Assembly: GCA_018894105.1 (NCBI GenBank)
Contig: CM032131.1
Location: 7,714,501-7,778,500, forward strand
DNA length: 64,000 nt
Source of the DNA: Jacaranda mimosifolia
Taxonomy: Eukaryota > Streptophyta > Magnoliopsida > Lamiales > Bignoniaceae
Direction of reading: 5' to 3'
Shown: piece by piece, positions 1,574 to 61,316 of the stretch
How positions within the stretch are numbered: position 1 is the first letter of the stretch
Layout of the letters: each line of letters starts with the position of its first letter
Notes under the pieces: generated by a model
What the model saw: the letters and a program-made list of their open reading frames with translations, nothing else
Told to the model about the DNA's origin: nothing
The model's database searches: none
Program-made: the position numbers and the translations under genes

Positions 1574-1584
1574 ATCTAGAATCG
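1574..1584. repeat. Left target-site duplication of the 6.8-kb MULE
   Basis: The 11-mer atctagaatcg here is repeated exactly at 8352-8362, directly outside the matching terminal inverted repeats. A 9-11 bp duplication is the signature of Mutator-superfamily insertion. Because a g follows the left copy, the true length may be 10 or 11. Confidence 0.85.
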
Positions 1585-1722
1585 GTTAATTAGAAAAAAA
1601 TCCCTAATCCTACTTTTATTTTAGTGATCAGTCCCCATTTGAATTTTTACACACTAAACTCCCTACTTTTTCACAAAACTTAGAAATCACTCCCCATATC
1701 TTTTAGAAAGACACATATATCC
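1585..1722 (+). repeat. Left terminal inverted repeat of the MULE
   Basis: It aligns with the reverse complement of 8213-8351, best from the block gtgatcagtcccc (about 1624) onward; the outermost 40 bp are more diverged but equal in length. MULE TIRs are the usual transposase binding sites and often act as promoters. Confidence 0.8.
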
Positions 1723-2222
1723 TTGTAGTTAGAGAAAACAACAAAAATACCTGAGAAATGCGTTTTTCTCTTCAAGAAGAATGCTTTCATTTATTTTTTT
1801 TCTAAAATCGACGACTTCTCCAAGCGGCCAAACAAAAGGGCGCGAAATCGTTCCTCTGCCATTGATGCGAGAAAGAAAAAAAAAAAGACACCAAAATTTT
1901 TGCCATTTTTTTTGTGACAATGGAAGGAGAAACAATGGCAACAAGAAGCGAAATACAAAAAGAAGTGATAAAAAGAAACAAATGTATGTTTTCTGCATTT
2001 ACAGTTTTAAATGTCTGTGATTTTTCAGTGTTATACTTATTTCTTGTCTATTTTCTCATGTTTAGGGTTTTTATTTCCTATTTAGTTGTTAAACACTTGA
2101 ACCCAATTGATATATATAATTTTTTTTGTGAGATGGGAAGTTTTTGATTTGTACTTGAAAGGCATAAAAGTTGTACTTCACTTTTTTGAGGTTTATACTT
2201 CTTTTTACCTGAAATTATACGA
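1723..2222. other. MULE subterminal sequence without recognised gene
   Basis: This stretch lies between the left TIR and the first tandem array. Two overlapping open frames (1781-2020 and 1914-2147) encode short Lys/Asn-rich or hydrophobic peptides with no recognised domain. The patch at 1805-1875 is less AT-rich than its surroundings and could be captured host DNA, but I do not recognise it. Confidence 0.4.
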
Positions 2223-2660
2223 TGAAATTATCTGAAAGTGGTAGTATATTATTTGTGGTACAAAACATCTAAGCTTGCAGTACACATTATGCAAAAGTGT
2301 AGTATATAATTTGTATAACTGTAGTATATTTTAAAAGCAAATATAGTATAAATATTCAAGCTTGCAGTACACATTAAGCAAAAGTGTAGTATATAATCTA
2401 TGTAACTGCAGTACATTTTAAAAGTATTTGTAGTACAAAATATTCAAAGCTGCAGATTAAATGAAATTATAGTATATAATTTGTGTGCATGCAGTACATT
2501 TTAGAAGCATCTATAGTACAAAAGCATTCAAGCATGCAGTATACGTTAACTGAAAATGTAGTATATAATTTGTGTATTTGTAGTACATTTTAGAAGCAAC
2601 TGTAGTACAAAATATTTAAGTCTGTAGTATATATTAAATGAAAGTATAGTATATAATCTG
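2223..2660. repeat. Tandem array A, first block (about 87-bp units)
   Basis: Units begin at about 2271, 2358, 2447, 2530 and 2618, so spacings are 83-89 bp. Each unit holds about four 20-24 bp monomers with a tagtac or cagtat core (for example tgtagtacaaaacattcaag, then cagtatacattaaatg). The units are of distinguishable types a, a, b, c, d, revealing a four-unit higher-order repeat of about 347 bp that is clearer in the second block. Confidence 0.9.
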
Positions 2661-3358
2661 TGTAAAGAGGAGCTAAATTCATCTGGTGCAAAAAGAGATC
2701 AGAGTTGAGTTGGGGCACCGCATACACTTCGAGTCCTTATGTATATGTTGACGAGGATGTCAACGGATCAAGTGGGGGAGAATGTCATGGGTCGCTCATT
2801 AGAGAAGAATGGCAACCTTGACTTCAAGGGGCATTAGGAGCGACAAGGCGTTGTTGGCTCACTTGGTAAGGCAAAAAAAGCCCATGAGCAGAGACTCTTA
2901 CGAGGTGCGGTTTGAAAAACTATTTCAATGGCATATTCCTTAAGTTATGAGGATGCTTCCCACCAAGTTTGAAGTCATTCCGTGTCCGTTTGGGCACCGA
3001 ACATTGAGGGCGACCTGGAGCGGTCTTACTGCACGCAGGTAGTGCAAAGATGCATTGAGTAGAGTGGCTTGGAAAAGGAATTTTGTGAAACTGTTTTAGT
3101 GGGGTGTTCCTTGAGGTGTTGGCAACGTTCCCACCAAGTTTCACCAGTAGACGGTTCCGTTTGGATAGGAAACGGCGAAGATCTTTAGAATGCGGCAGTG
3201 CAGTGGCAATGCTGTAATTCCAGCTTATTGCGAGGAAAATTACTGTTCCATGGAGAATCGGACAGAGCTGGAACTTTGTGGAGTTAATGTATAAGCCGAG
3301 AGCTATCCAACGGTTCAAGCGGCAAGTGATTTGGACACCGGGAGAGGAAGTTGCGAAA
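2661..3358 (+). mobile_element. LTR-retrotransposon 3'-end fragment captured in array A
   Basis: This block of about 700 bp is clearly less AT-rich than the array around it. Near 2770-2785 it contains agtgggggagaa followed by tgtcatgggtcg, the layout of a polypurine tract followed by an LTR beginning TG. Inside the putative LTR, two diverged copies of a segment of about 180 bp share 'cccaccaagttt' (near 2959 and 3130). A 152-residue open frame at 2920-3378 on the minus strand is probably fortuitous. No LTR end, partner LTR or target duplication is visible; the junctions are abrupt and the block takes the place of one array unit. Confidence 0.6.
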
Positions 3359-3893
3359 ATGTAGTACAAAACATTCAAGCCTATAGATTAAATGAAATTA
3401 TAGTATATAATCTGTGTATATGCAGTATATTTTACAAAAACATTCAAGCGTGCAGTATACATTACTGAAAATATAGTATATAATCTGTGTATCTGTAGTA
3501 TAGTTTAGAAGCAACTGTAGTACAAAATATTTAAGCCTGCAGTATACATTAAATGAAAGTGTAGTATATAATCTGTGTAACTGCAGTATATTTTAGAAGC
3601 AAATATAGTATGAACATTTATGCTTGCAGTACACATCAGGCAAAAGTGTAGCATATAATCTATGTAACTGCAGTACATTTTAGAAGAATCTGTAGTACAA
3701 AACATTCAAGCCTGTAGATTAAATTAAATTATAATTTAATATTTGCATATATGCAGTACATTTTAGAAGCATCTGTAGTACAAAAATATTCAGGCATGTA
3801 GTATACATTAACTGAAAATGTAGTATATAACTTGTGTATCTATAGTACATTTTAGAAGCAATTGTAGTACAAAACATTTAAGCCTGTAGGGTT
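3359..3893. repeat. Tandem array A, second block, with four-unit higher order
   Basis: Units start near 3377, 3446, 3533, 3620, 3708, 3792 and 3880 in the order b, c, d, a, b, c, d. Like units are 331-347 bp apart (c: 3446 to 3792; d: 3533 to 3880). Type b carries 'gattaaat', type c 'ttaactgaaaatg', type d 'attaaatgaaagtg', type a 'cacatcaggcaaaagtg'. The array stops at 'cctgtagggtttg' near 3890. Confidence 0.9.
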
Positions 3894-3999
3894 TGAATCA
3901 TACTTTGTATGTACATACATATGTAAATTGAAGCGTACTTTGTTTATAATATTATTTTGTATGTAAGTATAATTTTTCATCAAGCATTTATAATATTTT

Positions 4000-5010
4000 G
4001 ATTTCAATACAATATGAGGGAAATGAAATACAAATGTAGAGCGAACAAAGTAAAAATTGTGTTATGTTGAAGTACACTTCAATTCAATTGAAATCGAGCA
4101 GTGAATTTGAGTACAATATGATGGAAATGAAGTACAAATATAGAAAAAATAAAGTATAAATGGTGTTATGTTGAAGTACACTTCAATTAAATTGAAATTA
4201 GGTAGTGAATTTAAGTACAATATGATGGAAATGAAGTATAAATATAGAACAAATACAGTATAAATTGTGTTATATTGAAATACAGTTCAATTAAATTGAA
4301 ATCGAGCAGTGAATTTGAGTATAATATGAGGAAGATGAAGTACAAACGTAGAACAAATAAAGTATAAATGTTGTTATGTTAAAGTACAGTTCAATTAAAT
4401 TGAAACCGGACAGTGAATTTGAGTATAATATGATGGAAATGAAGTACAAACAAAGAATAAATGGTGTTATGTTGAAGTACACTTCAATTAAATTGAAGTT
4501 GGACAGTGAATTTGAGTACAATATGATGTAAATGAAGTACAAAAGTAGAACAAACAAAATATAAATGGTGTTATGTTGAAGTACACTTCAACTAAATTGA
4601 AATTGAACAGTGAATTTGAGTATAATATGATAGAAATGAAGTACAAATATGGAACAAACAAAGTATAAATGGTGTTATGTTGAAGTACACTTCAATTAAA
4701 TTGAAATCGGGCAGTGAATTTGAGTACAATATGATGAAGATAAAGTACAAATATAGAACAAACAAAGTATAAATGGTGTTATGTTGAAGTACACTTCAAT
4801 TAAATTGAAATCGGGCAGTGAATTTGAGTACAATATGATGAAGATAAAGTACAAATATAGAACAAACAAAGTATAAATGGTGTTATGTTAAAGTACACTT
4901 CAATTCAATTGAAACCGGATAGTGAATTTGAGTACAATATGATGAAAATATAGTACAAACGTAGAACAAACAAAGTATAAATAGTGTTATGTTGAAGTAC
5001 ACTTATTGCA
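4000..5010. repeat. Tandem array B, 104-bp units
   Basis: The anchor gttatgttga occurs at 4061, 4165, 4269 (one change), 4373, 4466, 4570, 4674, 4778, 4882 and 4986. Eight of the nine spacings are exactly 104 bp and one is 93 bp (an 11-bp deletion). Each unit contains gaagtacaaatatagaac, agtataaatggtg, gaagtacacttcaatt and gagtacaatatgatgg, again GTAC/GTAT monomers. Copies are closely similar, so homogenisation is more recent here than in array A. Confidence 0.95.
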
Positions 5011-5339
5011 ATTGAATAATTAGTCTCCAATAATTGTAGTGATAGTCAAATATAATATTTTGAGATTATCGGATCAGATGAAATACGTATTTGTACAGGT
5101 TATAGGGTGAATATTATTGTCAAATGCTCATTTGTTTATATCTTTGAAAGCATAAGTATTCTTTATATTACTGCGAGTGATAACATTCATTCGTTGAACA
5201 TTAGTGGTTAATACTTTAAAACTTTAATATTATTTTATTCATATAATAAATATTACACACATTTTTAGAGTTTGGTTATTAATTACTGAGACTTAAAAAG
5301 CAAATCATGGAACAAATTTTAATTCAACAATATTAGTAA
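5011..5339. other. Spacer between arrays B and C, nothing recognised
   Basis: AT-rich sequence without the regular GTAC/GTAT monomers. It may be remnant transposon body between two array families. No ORF or motif is recognised. Confidence 0.5.
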
Positions 5340-5915
5340 AAATATTAAGAAATGGAGTACATAATGGCCGAAATGAAATACAAATGTCGTGAAATCAAAT
5401 ATAAATCTTTCAGATTAAGGTACGAAAGCACTATATCTTGGACAACATCCATTTGCTAACTTCCACGCTAAACAAGTACATTATTGCCAAAAAGAAGTAC
5501 AAATGTCATGAAATCAAGTACAATTCTACCAAATTGGGGTACAAAAAAATTGATATCTCGGACAACATGCAAAAATGCCAATTTCACGCTAAATCAAATA
5601 CATAATTGCCGAAATGAAGTACAATTATCGTGAAATCAAGTATAATTCTCCCAGATTAGGGTGCAAAATAACTGATATCTCCGAAAACATACAAAAATGC
5701 CAATTTCACGCTAAATCAAATACATAGTTGCCGAAATAAAGTATAATCGTCATGACACCAAGTATAGTTCTCCCAGATTGGGGTACAAAATAATTGATAT
5801 CTCGGACAATATACAAAAGTACCAATTTCACGCTAAATCAAGTACATGATTACCGAAATAAAGTACAAATGTCATGAAATCAAGTATAAATCTCCTAGAT
5901 TAAGGTACAAAATTT
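5340..5915. repeat. Tandem array C, 121-122 bp units
   Basis: The anchor cacgcta recurs at 5464, 5585, 5707 and 5829 (spacings 121, 122, 122). Units contain gaagtacaaatgtcatgaaa, gtataaatctcccag, ggtacaaaataactg and gtacataattgccg, the same core-plus-variable-tail layout as in the other arrays. The array ends right at the 3' end of the transposase remnant. Confidence 0.9.
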
Positions 5916-5917
5916 AG

Positions 5918-6145
5918 CTAGATTACTGATTCTTTGCCGATTCGATGATTATGCCCTGTTCTACCACATCTTTTACACTTAATTACACGTTTATCAATTT
6001 GTGATGGAATCCTCTGTGTCCTTCTATGCCCAGGTTGAGATCGGCAATCAGGTGCATTAATGACGCAATCATCATCTAGAGGGAACATATGCATATCATA
6101 CGTAGGAATAGTGTTTATCACTGATTGGTATGCTTGTTGATACAT
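5918..6145 (-). pseudogene. MULE transposase, C-terminal zinc-knuckle remnant
   Basis: The 75-residue reading frame looks like the C-terminal tail of plant MuDR-type transposases: an Arg/Pro-rich stretch (residues 36-50, GHRRTQRIPS) followed by a CCHC knuckle, Cys57-x2-Cys60-x4-His65. The fourth ligand, expected at residue 70, is Gly, so the finger is broken. In the family this domain follows the DDE core and the SWIM finger and helps DNA binding. Here nothing of the core lies upstream: the DNA on the N-terminal side (6180-7665) is tandem array D. The start codon is simply the first Met of the surviving frame, not a true start. The assignment rests on motif layout; a domain search would settle it. 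Confidence 0.7.
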
Positions 6146-6179
6146 CTCAACTCGGTAATATTGATCGGTAAAGTCATAC

Positions 6180-7665
6180 GATGAAAGTGACTTTGACTCG
6201 AGAGTACAAATTTTGATAAAATAAAGTAAAATTTAGGAACACTTGAAGTATAGAAATTCAATGAATATAGTATAAGTTTAGATAAAATGATGTATAAAAT
6301 GAAGTATAATTTCAAAAAACAGAAATATAATTTTTGATAAAGTGAAATACAATTTCAGAACACCTGAAGTATAAAACCTTAGCAATTGCAACACAATTTT
6401 TGAATAATCCATTAGTAGAATACTTGAAACTTAAATAATAGATTTAGATAACTGAAGTATAAGTTTGGAACACTTGAAGTATAGAACTTCAATGAATAGA
6501 GTACAAGTTTAGGTAAAATGATGTATAAAATGAAGTATAATTTTAAAAAATAAAAGTACAATTTTAGATAAAGTGAAGTATAATTTCAGAACACCTGAAG
6601 TATAAAATCTTAATAATTGCGGTACAATTTTTGGATAATTCATTAGTAGGACACTTAAAACTTAAATAATAGATTCAAATAACTGAAGTATAAGTTTAGA
6701 TAAAATAAAGTACAATTTCGAAACACTTGAAGTATAGAACTTCAATGAATAGAGTACATGCTTATGTAAAATGAAGTATAATTTCAGAAAATAGAAGTAC
6801 AATTTTATATAAAAAGAAGTACAATTTTAGAACACTTGAAGTAAAAATCCTTAGCAATTGCAATACGATTTTGGATAATCCATTAGTAGAACACTTGAAG
6901 TATAAAACTTAAATAATAGATTCAGATAATTAAAGTACAAGTTTAGATAAAATGAAGTACAATTTCAGAACACTTGAAGTATAGAACTTCAATGAATAGA
7001 GTACATGTTTAGGTAAAACAATGTATGAAATGAAGTATAATTTCAAAAAATAGAAGTACAATTTTAGATAAAGTGAAGTACAATTTCAAAACACTTGAAG
7101 TATAAAACTTTAGCAATTGCAGTACAATTTTTGAATAATCCATTAGTAAAACACTTTAAACTTAAATAATAGATTCAAATAACTAAAGTATAAGTTTAGG
7201 TAAAATGAAGTACAATTTCGAAACACTTGAAGTATAGAACTTCAATGAATAAAATACATGTTTAGATAAAATGAAGTACAAAAGAAAGTATAATTTCATA
7301 AAATAAAAGTACAATTTTAGATAAAGTGAAGTACAATTTCAGAACTCTTGAAGTATAAAGCCCTAGCAACTACAATATATTTTGGTTAATTGATAAATAT
7401 AACACTTAAAGTATATAACTTCAATAAATATAGTACAATCTTTGATAAAATGAAGTATAATTTCAGAAAATCAAAAGAATAATTTTATATAGAAGACGTA
7501 TAGTTTAGGAACACTTCAAGTATAAACTGCTAGAAGTTGCAGTACAATTTTGGATAATCCATTAATAGAACACTTGAAGTATAAAACTTACATAATAGAG
7601 TACAATTTTAGAACACTTCAAGTACAAAACTTTGCAAACTGCAGTACAATTTAGATTCTGTAGAA
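6180..7665. repeat. Tandem array D, about 250-bp higher-order units of 20-25 bp monomers
   Basis: The anchor acttgaagtatagaa recurs at 6241, 6472, 6725, 6972 and 7225 (spacings 231, 253, 247, 253). Each unit is a chain of about ten monomers of the form gaagtacaatttcagaacac, gaagtataaaacttagc, gagtacatgtttagat. The array sits exactly between the two transposase remnants, where the catalytic core of a MULE transposase would be. Confidence 0.9.
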
Positions 7666-7668
7666 GTA

Positions 7669-7902
7669 TTACCTTAAATCATCACTGCTTTTCTTTGCAC
7701 TGCTGCTCAATTCATCCTTTCTGTTTACCAGGATGTCAACAACGTTCATCTTCAATGTCAAATGCAGAAAGGCCATATTAATGACACCGTCATCATCAGT
7801 CAAACTCATGTATAATCTTTGATGTTGAGCTATGTATTGCAAACTGAAGTGTTCGGCGTTGATTTCACTCCATTTTCTTGCGAGATTAATGTATATGTCC
7901 AT
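7669..7902 (-). pseudogene. MULE transposase, N-terminal remnant (PB1-like region)
   Basis: The 77-residue frame starts at ATG 7900-7902. Residues 20-60 (FSLQY, then SLTDDDGVINM, then VVDILV) resemble the N-terminal PB1-like module of plant MULE transposases, where a beta-strand pair precedes a 'sl.ddkdl..m' helix. The start is plausible because it lies about 450 bp inside the right TIR with an upstream leader. The frame runs into array D and stops; no core follows. With the zinc-knuckle piece at 5918-6145 on the same strand it marks both ends of one original gene. The family call is by resemblance and is moderate. Confidence 0.55.
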
Positions 7903-8212
7903 TAACTTGATTGAACACTCCTACTTCACTACTGGTTGACATTGTCAGAAAATATAAGAAACTCAGAAGCAACTAAGAAGAAACTGAGAAGAAGAAGAAA
8001 CCCGAAAATGATGAAAATAAAAAGAGAAGAAGACAATGCAGCTATCGGGTTTGTGGTTTTTGGCTCTAACGTTATTCTTGTTCCCGCCGTGGAGCTTGTT
8101 GCGTTTTTTCTGTTCTTTCTATTTCTGGTATGATAGTGTTTACTGTTTGCTTGTCTGGATGAAGAAGAAGAAGAAGAACTGAGAAAAAATTAATGAAAAA
8201 TATTATATTTAA
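7903..8212 (-). other. Putative leader/promoter side of the MULE transposase
   Basis: This lies between the right TIR and the transposase start. It includes a GAA/CTT microsatellite (about 8159-8180) and a slightly GC-richer patch near 8040-8100. The plus-strand frame at 7936-8133 is a Lys/Arg-rich then hydrophobic peptide that I do not consider a gene. Confidence 0.4.
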
Positions 8213-8351
8213 GGGCATTTTTGTCAAATCAAGTGAGTGGGGAGTGATCTCTAAACTTTTAACAAAATTAGGGAGTTTTTTCTAACAAAAATTAAGTGGG
8301 GACTGATCACAAAAGTGGAAAGTGTGTTTGGTACTTTTAAATAAGTGTCCC
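8213..8351 (-). repeat. Right terminal inverted repeat of the MULE
   Basis: Its reverse complement shares gtgatcagtcccc, 'actcccta' and 'atcactcccca' with the left TIR in the same order and spacing. It ends in ...gtgtccc directly before the right copy of the 11-bp duplication (8352-8362). Confidence 0.8.
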
Positions 8352-8362
8352 ATCTAGAATCG
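8352..8362. repeat. Right target-site duplication of the MULE
   Basis: atctagaatcg, identical to 1574-1584. Confidence 0.85.
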
Positions 8363-32049: not shown

Positions 32050-33796
32050 GGGGAAATTGCAATTTTAGTCCACCAACTATAACTTGTTTTGATTTTAGTC
32101 CATTTTGATATGGGGCTAGCACATTTGGTCCATGGGCCCGTAAATTTTCACACATTTAGTCCAATGTTTTGCAATTTTTGTCCATCGGGCCGAAAAGTTT
32201 TCAATTGGGCTGAAAAATTGCCTACTCAGCATTAATTGGGCCTAAATATTGGGGATTTTGTGACATTTGTCAAATAGCTCCACGTCAGCATCCACCTCAG
32301 CCGCCACGTCAACTAAGTGGCTAAAACCCAAAAAAAGGAAAAAAAAAAGAAAGGAAAAAACTAATGGAATAATAATAATAATTGTGTGTATATATAATTG
32401 TTTGTATATATAATATAAATAAATAAAAAAAATTAGAAAGATGAAAATAAAAAATTGGTATAAAGGAGATGAAAAAAGATACATAAAAATGTATGAAATA
32501 ATATATTTAAAAAGAATATATAAAAATATATGTAAAAAGAATAAACAAATAGAAGTTGAATTTTTTTTAAAAATAATGACAAGTAAAAATTACAAAATAT
32601 TAAAGTAATTTCAAATAAATATGGCAACTGGAAAAAAAATCGATTTTTCTTTGAAATAACAATATGTGAAAAATTACCAATTTTTAAAATAATTTCAAAT
32701 AATTGTAGAAATTGAAAAAAAAATTGAAATTCTTTTTCTAAAATAATGACATGTGAAAAATTAGGAAATATTTAATTAAGATAATTCTAAATAATATTTA
32801 ATTTTTTTTATTCATTTCAAATTTATATATTATTAATAATATTTTTTATTTATCCTTATATACATGTATACATTTACTAAAACAAACACATATATACACA
32901 TATATATAAAAATTATATAATATATATTTATATAAAATAAAACCCCTCCCCCAAAAACCCCCGCGGCACCCCTTCCCACCCCTCACACCTTAACAGGCTG
33001 CCATGGCAGCTTGCATACTGGTCGGATCTAGCTTGATCTGGCCAGATCCGGCCATGGCAGCCTTCCGCGGGCAGTCAAGCCTGGCGGGCGTTTTGGCCGC
33101 CAGCATTTTTTTTTCTTTTTTTTTTTTTCCTTTTCCCTTTCATTTCCGCCATGGTAGCTTGCTGTTTTGGCCGCTAGCATTTTTTTTCTTGTTTTCCTTT
33201 TCCCCTTTGTTTTCGCCGGCAGCCGTTTGGCTGCCGGCGGCCCGAGCTGCCATGGCCATCGGCTAAGCTACCAACAGCATTGGCAGCTAGTGGTGTTGGG
33301 GTGGGGGGATTTGGCGGCTTCGGGGTGGGGTGGGGTGGGGCTGCCGGCAGCCCAAGCTGCCATGGCCATTGGCAAAGCTGCCAGCAGCCATGGCAGCTAG
33401 AGGTGTTGGGGTGGGGGGATTTGGGGGCTTCGGGGTGGGGTGGGGGTGGGGGACATAGATATATGTTTAGATTATATATATTATACATATGTTTAAATTT
33501 TTAATTCTATTGATTTTTTTTTGCCTCAATATTTTTCTTTTCTTTTTTTTTTTTTGCAAATTTGCTGACATGGCTACCGATGTGGATACTGATGTGGCAC
33601 ATGGTGATATATGTCACAGAATTCCCAAAATTAGGCCCGGTTGAAAGCTGACTGGGCAATTTTTGGGCCTAATTGAAATTTTTTCAGCCCGATGAATTAA
33701 AATTGTGAAAAATTGGACTAAATGTGCTAAACCCATATCAAAATGGAGTGAAATCGAAACAAGCAATAGTTGGTGGACTAAAATTGCAATTTCCCC
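32050..33796. mobile_element. MULE with long TIRs and a GC-rich core
   Basis: The ends are ggggaaattgcaatttta and its complement at 33779-33796, a classic plant MULE terminus. The inverted repeats extend about 250 bp (32050-32300 against 33545-33796; shared 'tagtccaccaactat', 'attttgatatggg', 'cgggc'). The flanks atttacgag (32041-32049) and atttatgac (33797-33805) form an imperfect 9-bp duplication (7 of 9). The interior is AT-rich to 32935, then abruptly GC-rich to 33450. There is no transposase. Confidence 0.85.
32940..33450. repeat. GC-rich core of the MULE with G-runs and a 110-bp tandem repeat
   Basis: It contains many ccatggc/gccatgg motifs and two copies of a 110-bp unit (ctgccggc at 33231 and 33341). 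Each copy ends in dense G-runs, such as ggggtggggtggggtgggg near 33322-33340. Short open frames here (for example 33003-33266) are Ala/Gly/Phe-rich low-complexity products and not convincing genes. A captured GC-rich host segment is possible but unrecognised. Confidence 0.75.
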
Positions 33797-41496: not shown

Positions 41497-42960
41497 TTTA
41501 ACACCCTGGATTTTTTAATATCATAAAATTAAGATAAGAGAAATTTAAGTTTCAATTTTGGCAAATACCTCTTGAATAAAAGAATTAAACCATAGTCAAA
41601 TCTCTAATTGGATCAATTAAGATCTAAGTATAAATACTAAAAGTAAAGGGATGAATATTTATTAAACTGTGACTCAATTATACCAAATTAGAAATATTCA
41701 GGGGACAATGTGAGCAAGTTATGTGAACTTCTCTTCTTCTTTACCTGTGGTTCCTAAAACATTGTTATATGAATTCCTGTCCATCTCGAGCTATTGACTT
41801 CTGGAACCAAATATCATGTTTTCACAAGTTTTGAAAAAGTAAACTGCTTGTGAAATCCTACCACACATCGCCCTTTAGGCTGATTATAGTTTTTGGTTGA
41901 TCATGATTTATGCCATGTTACTTGAAATTGACGATTGTGTTGGGAAAACTGAAAAAGAATTTCGAGATGTACTTTTCCATTATCGCCATGACTGTTATCG
42001 GGAAATAATTATGATGTTGTTTAACTTATTACTGTTATCATGGCAAAATGATATGTTAAGTGAAATGTTGTTGGATGCTTATACTATACTGATTACTGAA
42101 TACCCTTGGGGATGGGCCCTAGGATCAGCTTTGGGAGATGCCCGAGTAGAACGGACCGATGGTGATTGATCTCCAGCTGATACCTTGTTAATTATAATCT
42201 AGCCTCATAGCCAGTTGGAGGTAGCTGTCTATGAGGGGATAAGGTATGTAGCTAGCCATGACTACTATTTGGTCAACTATCCGACCCGATCACTCGAAAT
42301 TGGAGGGATAATGATTTTCATATTTTCAAAAGTAGAGAAATAATGTAGGAGAGCCACCAATAGTAGGTTTTGCTAAAAGGTTATTGATTTATTAACCGTT
42401 ACAATGTGTTTTGTTCTCTGTTGATTCAATACTTATGGAATTATTATTAGTCTGTGTACTTATGTTATTCCTTCATTAATAACTCACTAAATCATTCGAA
42501 CTTGCATTGTTTGTATTATTTGCTTCCTTTCTTTACCCCAAATAAGAAGAAGCTACAAAGATAGACTTAACCAAGAGACACAAAAGGTAATAAGCCTAAT
42601 GAATATATGGATATATGGATTGTAATATGATGTTTATTTGCTTCCGTTCTTTACCCCAAATAAGAAGAAACAACAAAGATAGACTTAACCACAAGGCATG
42701 AGAGGTAATAAGCCCAATGAATATATTGATATATGGATTGCAATCTGATGAGTTACTGATGTGAATATGACATGTAGGTTTGAAAATATCAAGTGTGATC
42801 TATTATAATTTGGTAATAAATTAAATTGTTGATGGATGTCACTTGTGGGAATTAAATATTTTGGTTTTTGAAAGACGTGTTTTCTCTTATCCAGAGAACT
42901 TGTGGTATAGATTTGAGTAGCACCTCGTCTGAGTAAACACCTCCCGGTTGGGGCACTATA
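41497..42960 (+). repeat. Y 5' LTR (short form)
   Basis: It starts tttaacaccc (TG changed to TT) and ends ...ttggggcactata before the primer-binding site. After 'caagtta' at 41721 it jumps to sequence matching 49041 in the 3' LTR. It contains a tandem duplication of about 115 bp around 'ctttaccccaaataagaag' (42531 and about 42650), also present in the 3' LTR. Confidence 0.8.
41897..42169 (+). other. Open frame in the LTR, not considered a gene
   Basis: A 90-residue frame lies wholly inside the Y 5' LTR. The matching stretch of the 3' LTR (about 49225-49485) does not keep it open and no domain is recognised. Confidence 0.5.
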
Positions 42961-46900: not shown

Positions 46901-49900
46901 ATTAATCTGATCGTAACTTGTTTTAAGTTTACACTACACTATAACTGTATTCCATTATTCACAAAAATGATTTATTTTGTTTCACGATACACGCAAACAT
47001 GTGCTTTATGATTTTTAATGCTTCTAGATTAACAATTAAATTGGATGATCAATTGATTACTGAATTTACCACTACTACTATGTTACTGTTAATTGGATCC
47101 ACCTTGGTCTGGGTGTGCGAGGGACTTCACCGGGCAGCAGCGAACTTGCTGGTTAAACCCTAAGCTCCCATGGCCTAATCCCCCTAGAGCAAAACAGAAG
47201 CCGTTTGTGGCTGAGGTGAGTCGTAGGATTTCCCAAGGGCCTAAGCTAAAGCACTGTTTTGGTAAAGACGTACCTTGCCTGGAGCGATAAGAGACTATTA
47301 CGATGGGAGTCATAAGGTTGACTTGCTACAATAAACATTGTTTGATCATCGCATATAAGTTGTTAGTTTAGAAAATTGTTTATTAAATTCTTGATTTGTT
47401 ACTGCTTGACTGTTTATTGATTTCCACTTATGTTTTTCTCGAATATTTTCATTATACAAATCATATTAAATTCATCAACTCACATTGCACACACTTGGCA
47501 TTCACCAAGTCTTTTACTCATACTCGTATTCTTCTTTGACTTCTTTCTGATAAACCTAGATCCTAGCCCTAGTGAGGAGGTAGATCCTATGTATGATGAG
47601 AATCAAGATTGAAGTCTTAGTTTGGGTTTTTGCAGTAAACTATTATATTTCTCCTAAGCTTATTAGTTCTATTTTATTTACTATGGATTCTATTTTGTTT
47701 TAGTTGGAATTAGAGTATTATGTATTTTGAATTTTTCTATTACAAGAGTTATTTGGATTATTATGAATGTTTGGATTTTCTATTATTTAAGAACATGATT
47801 TTGGTTAGATGAGATTATTTATTTAGGATTGAGTATCACACCTCGAGACTAGACTGTACGGTTTGGATTTTGGGGCATGATAAATAGACTTGTAAAATGC
47901 AACTAATTTAGAAATCTAGACTCTCATCACATACAATGAAATAAGTGAAGTGATGAATGGAGTTTGTTGGAGATAGCCACTCAAGAATTACTAGCTCGAA
48001 GTTTTAGAATAAGATAACCATGGCTATACTTATGGAATTAGATAAAGCAAAATATTCATAAAGTGGGTTGGATAACTTAGGGATTGAATTGGCCCGAGCA
48101 TGTTAAGCTATTAAGATGGTTAGAGCTTTAAGACAATAGAAATGGGAATGACTAGGCTCAGGCAAGTCAAGTGTAGTGATGCTGGTGTATTTGAACGATT
48201 AAGGTCATTCGAGATAAGATATAATTGAACTTGAGTATTATAGCAACAAATATGTACTGAATACTGGAACCCTAAAAGAGACCACAATAATGTAGAACGT
48301 ATCAGTAATCCATTTATCAACTAATTAGCTAAGGATTACCACATTTAATCGTCTTAAGCATTTAGATATGAAACAAAGATTAACAGAATTGTACTTAGAA
48401 TAACCTTGACTTTGATAAAGACATCAACTATACTTATACTTAAGATTTAGAGGATTAACAGGATGGTAACTCGGGTTATCTTATGATAGTTCTCGATTTG
48501 ACTATGAGCATCCATACAACAAGGGATTTCTCTGCATTTACCAGGTGAGTTTGTACTAGATTCCTTTGTTAGGGAAATAACATAAGTATTTGCTATTATA
48601 TATTTGTTGCTTGACTTTGGTTGTGTCGAGATTCAATAGTTGTTAATTGTTCGTCCTGTGCTATTATTTGGCTCTTGTGTTGTATTTAATAGTCAATCTG
48701 AACTATTCTTCTTGCCTGTAACTCTGGAGCCATCGTTATTTAAAATCCAAGTCTACCCTAAAACGAATTCTTATCTTATGTATATATTAGTAAATATATC
48801 ATTAATGTTTGATTATTTCCTTGTTAAAGATTGTGTTAGCTTATGTTAGTTTAATCTTCGATTCTTGTGTTAATCTTGATAGTTGGTTTGTGCTCCGTTC
48901 TTCTTTACCGTGTGATTCTTGAGCCATTCTTGTTTAAATTACCCTATCCATCTTGAAGTGTGGAATTCCTGGCTCGAACGATTTAATCGATTCATATTTA
49001 CATAAGTTTTTGGAAATTAAATTGCTTGAAAGCTTATTTAAACTTCTTTTCTTCTTTGCCTATGGTTCTTGAACCATTGTTACTTGAATTCCTATCCATC
49101 TCGAGCTGTTGACTTCTAGAATCAAATATCACATTTTTACGAGTTTTGAAAAAGTAAACTGCTTGTGAAATCTTACCACACATCGCCATATTATGCTAAT
49201 TATGATTTTTGTTTGATCATAATTTATGCCGTTTTACCTTAAAATGGAGATTGTGTTGGGAAAAATGAAAAAGGATTTCGAGATGTGCTTTGCCATTATC
49301 GCCATGTTGTTATCTAGAAATGAGTCTAATGTTGATTAACTGATTATTGTTTATCATGGTGAAATGATGCGTTAAGTGAAGTGTTGTTGGACGATTATAC
49401 TATATTGATTACTGAATATCCTTGGGGGTGCGTCCTAGGATCAGCTTTGGGAGATGTTCGAGCGAAACAGACAGACGATGATCGGTCTCCAGTTGATACC
49501 CCATTAATTATAATCTGGCCTCATAGCTAGTTGGAGATAGCTATCTATGGGGGATAAGGCATGTAGCTAGCCATGCCTATGTTTGGTCAACTATCTTAGC
49601 AAATCACTTGGAATTGGAAGGATAAGGATTTTCGTGTTTTCAAAAGTAGAGGAATAGGGTAGGATAATCACCAACAGCAGGTTTTTCTAAAAGGTTATTG
49701 ATTTGTTAACAGTTACAGTGTGTTTTGTTCCCTGTTGATTCTGTACTTATGGAATTATTATTACTCTGTGCACTTGTATTACTCCTTCACTAATAACTCA
49801 CTAAGTCATTCGGACTTACATTATTTGTATTATTTGCTACCGTTCTTTACCCCAAATAAGAAGAAATGACAAAAATAGACTTAACCACAAGACACAAGAG

Positions 49901-50301
49901 GTAATAAGCCCAATGAATATATGGATATATGGATTGTAATATGATGTTTATTTGCTTCCATTCTTTACCCCAAATAAGAAAAAGCGACAAAGATAGACTT
50001 AACCACGAGATGGGAGAGGTAATAAGCCCAATGAATATATGGATATACGAATTGTAATATGATGAGTTACTGATGTGAATATGATAGATAAGTTTGAAAA
50101 TATCAAGTGCGATCTATGATACTTTGGTAATAAGTTAAACTATTGAAGGATGTCACTTGTGGGAATTAAATATTGCCGCTCCCCGACATTCCGACCAAAG
50201 GGTGGTTTTTGAAAGAAGTGTTTTCTCTTGTCCAAAGGGCTTGTGGTATAGATTTGAGTAGCACCTCATCCGAGCAGACACCTCCCAGCTTGGGTGCTAT
50301 A
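43920..50301 (+). repeat. Y 3' LTR (long form, 6.4 kb, probably with nested LTR material)
   Basis: 43920-44143 matches the start of the 5' LTR and 49041-50301 its end. The extra 44144-49040 shows further gypsy-LTR features: GC-richer patches at 44500-44900 and 47096-47300, a 'ggggcatgataa' end-like motif near 47873 and 'accaggtgagttt' at 48540. It contains a long hairpin (45463-45719), a purine tract (45838-45960) and a T-run near 46263-46281. It is either one very long LTR, shortened in the 5' copy, or an LTR with one or more nested LTRs; I could not find inner boundaries. Confidence 0.65.
45463..45719. repeat. Near-perfect inverted repeat (arms about 105 bp, loop 43 bp)
   Basis: Arm 45463-45567 is complementary to 45611-45719 with a few base changes and length differences in the att/aat run. 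The arm contains ttcggtatttaggaag, paired with cttcctaaataccgaa. Directly upstream a unit of about 59 bp is tandemly repeated (gtaagctaatct at 45376 and 45435). A transcript would form a long hairpin. Confidence 0.85.
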
Positions 50302-54189: not shown

Positions 54190-55227
54190 CGTAGACACAT
54201 TAATTTCCAGCTAATTAAAAAATGATACTTGAAAATAATATACTGGTTATTGATTTAAATTTTCTATTTATGTCTTAGAATTTATCAAATTTAATTCCAA
54301 AAGATAAATAGTTAATTTTAATTAATACTCTAATATTTATTTTGTGCTCAAATTAGATATCAACAAGTGTCAAAGTGAAATGCCACAGCCAATGAATTCA
54401 AGTTTTGTAGCTTAGCAATTTCAAGCTAATCAAATTGCAACAAGTGGTATATTTTAGTACGTGGACCAATCAAGTCAAAGATAATTAATATTATCCTTTG
54501 CTATTTGATATTATCTTTTAATATATACATTGAAGAGATAACTATCAAAGAAGTTCAAGCTATTTGAGAGTCTTCTACTATGCACCTATATAAAGGGATG
54601 ATAAAAACTCATTCGAAACACAACAGCAAGCAACAACACAAGTCATAACAAACAAGAGAGACCTTGAAGAAGTTCAAAAGTTCTCTCAACCAAATTCAAG
54701 GAGATCTATGGCGTTCAAGATGTTCATCATGGATCTTATCAAACTTCGACATTTGATTCGAGATTACGATCTGAAGCCTTCAAATTGTGGTTATATTCCA
54801 AACCAAATTCAAGGAGATTCATAGCTTTCAAGGTGTTTATTATGGAGCTCATCAAATTTTAGCATTTGATTCGAGATTACAATGTGAAGCCCTCAAATTA
54901 GTATTATATTCCAAATCAAATTCAAGAAGATCTACGGCACTCAAGGAGTTCATTGAGGAGCTTATCAAATCCCAGCATTTGATTCGAGATTATGGAGCAA
55001 AGCTCTCGAATTGGAGTTATTTTTTCAAATCAAGTCAAAGGAGTCTATGATGTTCAAGGTATTCATTGTAGAGCTTATTAAAGCTCAAAATTACTTTTCG
55101 AAGGAAGGAATTAGAGGATAGATTAGGAATTGTATCCACATCATAAATTTTAATAAATTTCATTTTTATTTGTATGAATTTTTTATCTTGGAATTTCAAT
55201 TTCACAGATAATGAAACTTGAATTACA
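54190..55227 (+). repeat. W 5' LTR with 113-bp tandem repeats
   Basis: The first base pair of the usual TG is CG here, the 3' LTR having TG. TATA box at 54588-54594. From 54691 a unit with 'caaattcaaggaga' repeats at 54691, 54804, 54917 and 55031 (113-114 bp each). The frame at 54787-55050 is an artefact of these repeats. Confidence 0.85.
54588..54594 (+). promoter_or_regulatory. TATA box of the W LTR
   Basis: tataaag in 'cacctatataaaggg'. The 3' LTR has tatataaa at the same place (60693-60700). Confidence 0.6.
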
Positions 55228-60318: not shown

Positions 60319-61316
60319 TGCAAACACATTAAATTTTGACTAATCAGAAAATGACACTTCGAAATAATATACTAGTTGTTGATTTAAATTTTCTATTTAT
60401 ATCTTACAATTTACTAAATTTGATTTCAAAAGATAAATAGCTAATTTTAATTATACTCTAGTATTTATTTTATGTGCGAATAAGATATCAACAAGTGTCA
60501 AGGCGAGTGTCATAGCTAATCAAATCAAGTTTTGTAGCTTAGCAATTTTGGGCTAACCAAATTGCGACAAGTGGTTTATTCTAATATGTGGACCAATCAA
60601 GTTAAAGATATTTGATATTATCTCTTAATATATGCATTGAAGAGATAATTATCAAGAAGCTCAAGCTACCTGGGAATCTTCTACTCGACAATTATATAAA
60701 GAGATGATCAAATCTCATTCAAGATATAACAGTAAGCAACAACACAAGTCATAGCAAGCAAGATAGACCTTAAAAGAGTTCAATAATTCTCTCAATAAAA
60801 TTCAAGGAGATCCACTGTATTCAAGGCTTTCATCACGGAGCTCATCAAATCCTGGCATTTAATTTGAGGTTACAGTGCAAAACCCTTGAATTAGCATTAT
60901 ATTTCAAATCAAATTTAAGGACATCCACGATGTGCATCGTGGAGCTTATCAAATTTCAACATTTTATTTGATATTGTGGTGCGAAGCCCTCAAATTGGCA
61001 TTATATTTCAAATCAATTTCAAGGAGATCCATCAAGGCATTCAGCACAGAGCTCATCAAATCCAGCGTTTAATTCAAAATTATGGTACAAAACCCTCAAA
61101 TTAGTATTATTTTTCCAAATCAAGTTAAATGAGGTCCATAGTATTTAAAGTATTCATCGCAGAGCTCATCAAAATTCAAAATTATTTTTCGAAGGAAAGA
61201 GTTAGAGGATTAGATTAGGAATTGTATCCATATCACAAATTCTATTAAATTTCATTTTTATTTATAAGAATATTTCTTGTCTTGTAATTTAATTTTGCAA
61301 ATGATGAATTATTACA
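60319..61316 (+). repeat. W 3' LTR
   Basis: It starts tgcaaacacatt and ends aattattaca, aligning with 54190-55227, with the same tandem repeats in less regular form (about 104-113 bp; 60797, 60910, 61014 and 61121). Confidence 0.85.

Follow-up and report, generated by a model that had tools for sequence, protein, structure and literature searches.

A gene-less, probably VANDAL/Kaonashi-type Mutator-like element in Jacaranda mimosifolia as a likely platform of VANC-type target sites

In the passages drawn on here from two reports on Arabidopsis (PMC5735166, PMC10398659), VANC proteins of VANDAL MULEs bind tandem motifs that share one orientation and remove DNA methylation, and the targets of VANC6 are given as AGTTGTCC/AGTTGTAC (PMC5735166). 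The element described in this work lies in a 64,000-nucleotide stretch of Jacaranda mimosifolia DNA, referred to hereafter as the window. As far as those passages describe VANDAL21 and VANDAL6, its family resembles them in being a MULE with degenerate TIRs and a DUF1985-like gene, in carrying short same-orientation motifs at high density, in tandem and mainly in noncoding DNA, and in the fast variation of these repeats between copies. It differs from them in its word, which is AGTAYA and not YAGTATTAY or AGTTGTCC/AC (AGTA is all that it has in common with the word of VANC21), in a spacing of mostly about 22 bp, in the loss of coding blocks, in a subterminal inverted repeat that is still recognisable, in its host, which probably belongs to another plant order, and in being known from sequence alone. 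With the KI and Ulp1-bearing MULEs of grapevine, melon and rice, as they appear in passages of PMC2528002 and PMC13317346, the family shares a non-TIR-like character and a high copy number and apparently, with KI MULEs, an Ulp1-like domain opposite in orientation to the transposase. Oriented motif arrays, however, go undescribed for grapevine in those passages, and for Ulp1 the match here comes from one short frame that falls slightly short of the Pfam cut-off.

In our view the window element is likely to be non-autonomous, to derive by deletion from a VANDAL/Kaonashi-type MULE and to amount in essence to a platform for VANC-type binding. VANC-type anti-silencing has been worked out in Arabidopsis; here an abundant system with the same layout is found in another flowering plant, probably of the Lamiales, as the best protein matches were in Sesamum and Handroanthus. 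This system has its own motif and a strongly preferred spacing of about 22 bp, and it includes a derivative without genes in which the presumed target arrays persist. Nature thus provides a test of whether an element can evade silencing by virtue of its arrays alone.

The limits of the element were set from 20 other genomic copies and are given below with its terminal features.

1574-1582, no strand: target-site duplication, left copy, ATCTAGAAT, identical to 8352-8360
1583-8351, + strand: whole element, non-autonomous VANDAL/KI-type MULE, 6,769 bases
1612-1696, + strand: left subterminal inverted repeat (degenerate TIR), score 71
8238-8323, - strand: right subterminal inverted repeat, pairing with 1612-1696
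8352-8360, no strand: target-site duplication, right copy, ATCTAGAAT, 9 bp

The first-pass annotation had proposed a bounded Mutator-like element, and the termini common to the copies, together with the target duplication, bear this out. Its right end at 8351 (GTGTCCC) stands, while the left end moves from 1585 to 1583, where the copies start with CGGTTAATTAG. The 11-bp duplication that it reported is really 9 bp, exact in the window copy and in 19 of the 20 others (L016 has one mismatch) and within the 8-11 bp expected of the MULE superfamily; the CG beyond the 9 bp is taken for chance. The proposed TIRs are degenerate. The subterminal inverted repeat scored 71, compared to a maximum of 45 among 500 random pairs of window segments, and is about 77% identical over 77 bp, as in the degenerate TIRs of VANDAL/KI-type MULEs, but the outermost ~28 bp at the two ends do not pair. 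The stretch 1590-1637 additionally matches the inner right stretch 8238-8285.

Between these ends, the body of the element consists mainly of arrays.

2150-2199, - strand: three reverse-oriented motifs, starting at 2150, 2172 and 2194, 22 bp apart
2276-2666, + strand: array A87, first part, 87/172-bp higher-order units of 22-bp AGTAYA modules, 18 motifs
2667-3354, no strand: non-repeat insert within array A87, no AGTAYA, present in 20/20 copies
3355-3890, + strand: array A87, second part, 19 motifs
4001-5013, + strand: array B104, 34 motifs
5350-5915, + strand: array C122, 11 motifs
6200-7660, + strand: array D250, 46 motifs

Tandem Repeats Finder gave periods of 87/172 (2294-2666 and 3433-3889), 104 (4001-5004), 122 (5358-5913) and 231-253/500 (6224-7427), and with boundaries of our own the arrays account for 3,967 of the 6,769 bases (59%). 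The four tandem arrays are real, as had been noted, but they are not four families of unrelated length: all are higher-order expansions of one module of about 22 bp that carries the oriented hexamer AGTAYA. The element contains 130 forward and 4 reverse AGTAYA, compared to a mean of 9.4 and a maximum of 19 in 200 first-order Markov simulations, and 85 of the 129 intervals between motifs are 21-23 bp. The flanks of the 20 copies are at background level, with 72 AGTAYA on both strands of 65,282 bases, or about 0.55 per kb on each strand. This count omits the right flank of L021, which holds another AGTAYA element. Such dense, tandem, same-orientation noncoding motifs are those of a VANDAL/KI-type MULE. 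AGTATT, the core of the arrayed word of VANDAL21 (YAGTATTAY), occurs 3 times against 130 for AGTAYA, so the element is not VANDAL21 itself. A strict helical-phase rule for the spacing was considered and dropped: 22 bp corresponds to about two turns of the helix, but spacings of 39 and 34-37 bp depart from such a rule.

In En/Spm-type elements, subterminal repeats are binding sites of the transposase. The rows might likewise serve cleavage and not anti-silencing, and the arrays are indeed the main feature kept besides the ends. We regard this as very improbable: the rows run one way across 5.4 kb of the interior and are not mirrored at the two ends, AGTAYA is missing from the terminal 449 bp on the left and 691 bp on the right, and the rows accompany a DUF1985-like gene, as described below.

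The deletions that produced the element were mapped against a gene-bearing relative from the same genome, a composite of L048 and L049 that represents a single parent-like copy without outer ends.

3888-3890, no strand: deletion junction 1, lacking the gene block that the relative has at composite about 1,120-1,208 to 4,951
3891-4000, no strand: unique spacer sp1, 86% identical to composite 4956-5054
5014-5349, no strand: unique spacer sp2, 85% identical to composite 5522-5854
5918-6199, - strand: transposase C-terminal remnant with a zinc-knuckle-like end, 88% DNA and 74% protein identity to the relative
6200-6203, no strand: deletion junction 2, lacking the transposase body that the relative has from composite 6600 to at least 8237
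7669-7920, - strand: open frame, putative first exon of the transposase, by position alone; no profile match

In the relative, a MULE transposase lies on the minus strand and a gene with DUF1985-like and Ulp1-like parts on the plus strand, while the noncoding stretches hold AGTAYA arrays. Its transposase exceeded the cut-offs of PF03108 (E 3e-11) and PF10551 (E 4.9e-11) and fell just short for SWIM (E 0.002). The DUF1985 match (E 4.5e-7) and the Peptidase_C48 match (E 8e-4, 19.7 bits compared to a cut-off of 20.7) lie below theirs; the latter comes from one short frame, and the neighbouring Ulp1-like frame has none. By a partition that follows our own judgement, 4 motifs fall in 3,752 coding-like bases and 120 in the other 6,123. 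One group of motifs, which separates the DUF1985 frame from the Ulp1-like frames, runs antisense and is less dense, and only 4 motifs fall in the C122-like block. The unique stretches are collinear and 85-88% identical, so the window element is without the coding blocks and has kept the four arrays. The left limit of the block missing at junction 1 and the right limit of that missing at junction 2 are blurred by repeats.

The window element retains only the C-terminal end of the transposase, and its remnants are identified solely through L049 (282 bp and 93 aa compared at 5918-6199). A six-frame Pfam search of the element gave no match of its own; the remnants reached at best a zinc knuckle at E 0.24 in Pfam and E 0.057 in NCBIfam, far under the cut-off or insignificant. 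With the C-terminal end as sole query, the best PDB match was insignificant (E 0.87), and a large protein set including plant proteins gave no match (6 candidates). The open frame at 7669-7920 may be the first exon, judged by position.

The window element is one of dozens of recent, near-identical copies. All 20 fetched copies are full length and carry 106-132 forward motifs each. Copies that share these termini and differ in array length, for which the first-pass annotation had suggested a search, were found: the 104-bp array measures 1,013 bp in the window copy, 908-909 bp in the other 13 copies of subfamily 1, 815 bp in L019 and 199 bp in L017, and the arrays in general differ by unit steps. 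The transposase end is present at 150 places in the genome; we refrain from speaking of at least 150 gutted copies, as the gutted state was seen for part of them.

That annotation had also suggested that the arrays may have expanded inside the MULE, which then dispersed them and could in this way seed satellite DNA. Many copies do hold arrays. However, the relative with coding parts has arrays at the corresponding positions, so they were most likely not born inside the gutted element. A genome search with the 104 array returned 1,872 candidates, and the 40 best-scored of these were all inside element copies (39 had a transposase remnant 1.2-1.9 kb away in the right orientation, and the 40th is the full copy L023). 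With these 40 arrays inside copies and the flanks at AGTAYA background, we give satellite seeding hardly any credence.

The gene that distinguishes the relative is putatively of VANC type, with a DUF1985-like domain, and is absent from the window element. Only 2 of 147 genome matches to DUF1985 exceeded the Pfam cut-off, most being just under it; whole frames in relatives gave E 1.7e-7 and 4.5e-7, below the curated cut-off, and the frames match the plant mobile domain (PMD) nearly as well. In comparisons of L047 with eight other AGTAYA-type loci, dN/dS of the frame was 0.20-0.35. In nine of ten DUF1985-like loci, the 1.5 kb upstream contains 29-47 AGTAYA in sense orientation, usually at a spacing of 22 bp, and 1-5 in antisense orientation; in an unprompted hexamer count, AGTACA and AGTATA were the two commonest words upstream of those nine. 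The profile-matched stretch is free of AGTAYA on either strand in 9 of the 10 loci and has one antisense copy in L047. The diverged locus L045 has its own ~85-bp array upstream, with AGTATT 7 times and AGTAYA 4 times; AGTATT occurs 0-1 times in the other nine. A diverged gene with a diverged word provides a natural test of joint change in motif and protein.

By analogy with Arabidopsis VANC, we infer that the AGTAYA arrays offer densely packed putative docking sites to the DUF1985-like protein; this protein would bind the rows and demethylate whichever elements contain them. Mobilisation of gene-less copies by the transposase of relatives would follow from such binding and demethylation in trans. 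Counting against this reading, C>T and G>A prevail among the private mutations of the copies (about 11 per kb compared to ~1 per kb for the reverse), so the fetched copies were probably methylated at some time after they inserted. The periods of 87, 104, 122 and about 250 bp would be independent expansions of one 22-bp docking module, by slippage or unequal exchange, at four noncoding positions of the ancestor. VANC systems are said by Sasaki et al. to have diversified across eudicots, with specificity reportedly set by motif sequence, density and helical periodicity, and non-autonomous copies reportedly matter.

The arrays might instead be selfish minisatellites, in which a 22-bp unit devoid of function slips, is tolerated in noncoding parts and spreads by transposition, the coding parts being lost by chance. 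The unit-step variation between copies is consistent with this, as is the motif core, which is without significant constraint. In a comparison of two subfamily consensuses, changes were found at 23/804 core positions and 117/3064 other array positions (Fisher p 0.24). C and G sites changed less within the motif than elsewhere (p about 0.10 each), A sites equally in both, and T sites more within it (8/197 compared to 22/973). There is thus no sequence evidence of selection on AGTAYA inside gutted copies. Slippage of a neutral unit does not, however, readily account for one oriented word across separate noncoding blocks with differing array units, for its presence upstream of nine of the ten DUF1985-like genes or for the diverged word of L045, and there is a close precedent in VANDALs. 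We therefore think this explanation rather unlikely and prefer docking arrays.

A bolder extension of the docking reading is that gene loss with retention of the arrays was selected at the level of the transposon. The element, with about 130 VANC-type sites between functional ends, would then be a hyperparasite: it would attract the anti-silencing protein that full-size relatives make, would be kept or rendered free of methylation in trans and would thereby have amplified in the genome. The 22-bp length of its module would follow from the helical phase of DNA, at about two turns, with independent expansion at four places. We offer this tentatively and lean against it.

The insert at 2667-3354 gave no profile match in the two frames tried. 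We had considered that it replaced the lost gene, but comparison with the relative maps the gene deletion to 3888-3890. We take the insert to resemble a retrotransposon fragment.

Each array that the first-pass annotation had claimed within the Mutator-like element at 1583-8351 proved real, every one being recovered by Tandem Repeats Finder. Its reading of them as four different repeat families was not upheld, since all of the arrays (A87, in two parts, B104, C122 and D250, named for their unit periods in bp) share a module of about 22 bp carrying the hexamer AGTAYA. The element has 130 forward and 4 reverse copies of this hexamer, against 40 and 45, respectively, in the remaining 57,213 bases of the window and 34 and 38 in 65,282 bases flanking the genomic copies. 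The flank control omits the 3,075-bp right flank of one copy, L021, where another element with AGTAYA rows lies (50 and 4). Successive hexamers were 21-23 bp apart in 85 of 129 intervals. When hexamers were ranked array by array, AGTATA or AGTACA came first in B104 and each part of A87, second in C122 and third in D250, and a lag of 21-22 bp was among the strongest in the A87, C122 and D250 arrays and weaker in B104. Counts, spacing, ranks and lags together indicate that the periods of 87, 104, 122 and about 250 bp are higher-order units of a single oriented module of about 22 bp.

The subterminal inverted repeat of the window element scored 71, compared to a maximum of 45 for 500 random pairs of window segments. 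The window occupies C15:7714501-7778500 in a genome of 707 Mb and 65 contigs. When this genome was searched with the first 316 bases of the element, the best 40 of 1,669 candidates were all 98-100% identical. Twenty of the 39 places outside the window were read, 10 kb each; they are the closest by left end and thus biased to young copies. All 20 contained an end-to-end element of 5.8-6.7 kb, flanked by a 9-bp target duplication that was exact in 19 and had one mismatch in the other; these full-length copies and their duplications place the start of the window element at 1583, with CGGTTAATTAG. The copies form a star-like tree with two subfamilies of 14 (window included) and 7 sequences, with mean distances of 1.1% inside the first, 0.8% inside the second and 4.3% from one to the other. 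A non-repeat insert of 687-688 bp (2667-3354 in the window) was present in 20 of 20 copies. The neighbor of copy L021 (L021:7389-9400), which has an 84%-related left end followed by a 1.27-kb A87-like AGTAYA array, adds another, distinct member to the network.

Private changes were mainly C>T (203) and G>A (263) of 736, an excess in keeping with methylated, silenced copies. Constraint on the motif core was not detected between the subfamily consensuses (23 of 804 core and 117 of 3,064 other array positions differ; p 0.24), and T sites changed more inside the motif than outside.

One relative with coding blocks was read:

C8:19910497-19920371, relative L048 with adjoining L049

It carries, in order, a sense array, a DUF1985-like frame, a second frame, antisense motifs, Ulp1-like frames, arrays matching B104 and C122, the transposase on the opposite strand and an array matching D250; it was read without its outer ends, and its frames were taken as found. 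The unique spacers (sp1 86% identical, sp2 85%, transposase end 88%) show that the two elements are collinear. Compared to the relative, the window element lacks the gene block (relative composite about 1,120-1,208 to 4,951) and the transposase body (6,600 to at least 8,237), and it keeps four arrays. The relative is not its direct parent.

The transposase end, a C-terminal remnant at 5918-6199 (minus strand) in the window, was found at 150 places or more with at least 88% identity (best 150 of 1,349 candidates), and some of these may come from ungutted elements. Among the matches listed, 30 of the 40 best left ends had a transposase end 4.0-4.3 kb off, the distance of the gutted form, and none had one at 5.2-12 kb. 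The other 10 had none among the matches listed; five of them (copies L009, L017, L023, L024 and L028) were gutted on full reading.

DUF1985 is a domain of the Arabidopsis VANC proteins. A genome search with its profile (PF09331) gave 147 matches among the best 150 of 418 candidates, two of them above the curated cut-off and many with a 273-aa open frame. A 273-aa frame scoring the same 29.9 bits recurs at dozens of places, a gene-bearing family that is itself strongly amplified. Nine of ten DUF1985-like loci had 29-47 sense AGTAYA in the 1.5 kb upstream; the matched stretch itself had none on either strand in nine and one antisense in L047. Sequence left of the array in L047 aligns to the window element on its left side. 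Values of dN/dS for the frame were 0.20-0.35 in eight comparisons with L047 and 0.19-0.30 in the seven computable pairs with L045, where dS exceeds 1 and is saturated; close pairs, with few changes, reached 1.5, as expected of decaying copies. L045, the most diverged locus, has no AGTAYA row and its own array of about 85 bp upstream, where AGTATT occurs 7 times and AGTAYA 4 times (AGTATT, 0-1 upstream of the other nine). This one case is only suggestive that word and gene co-vary. The content of the window is that of a flowering plant, and the best protein matches of one DUF1985-like protein and of a retrotransposon protein from the window were in Sesamum and Handroanthus, which makes Lamiales likely.

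This kind of system is already known. In Arabidopsis, VANC21 is reported to bind YAGTATTAY and to cause loss of DNA methylation, greatest at bound regions and spreading across the element, and VANC6 targets are described as carrying other words (PMC5735166). VANDALs are described as having degenerate TIRs (PMC10398659), and Ulp1 of KI-MULEs as reverse-oriented to the transposase (PMC2528002). The layout found here appears to be in line with these VANDAL and KI-MULE features, the DUF1985 and Ulp1 matches lying just under the Pfam cut-offs. By analogy, a DUF1985-like protein would most likely bind the AGTAYA rows, elements carrying rows would then be demethylated, and gutted copies would be mobilized in trans. 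By title, the papers listed include the Arabidopsis work and reviews, with none pointing to the AGTAYA motif or to this lineage; Sasaki et al. 2022 is reportedly the key survey of eudicots for VANC systems.

Other repeats occur in the window. Two 118-bp tandem pairs (42516-42750 and 49830-50064) lie 7.3 kb apart in a 1.27-kb direct repeat, 84% identical, that probably represents the LTRs of an old retrotransposon. Separate short arrays with units of 113 and 104 bp (54688-55082 and 60821-61123) are about 73% alike across 466 bp and by eye bear no relation to the AGTAYA arrays. A 110-bp tandem repeat at 33229-33451 is G+C-rich amid an A+T-rich region.
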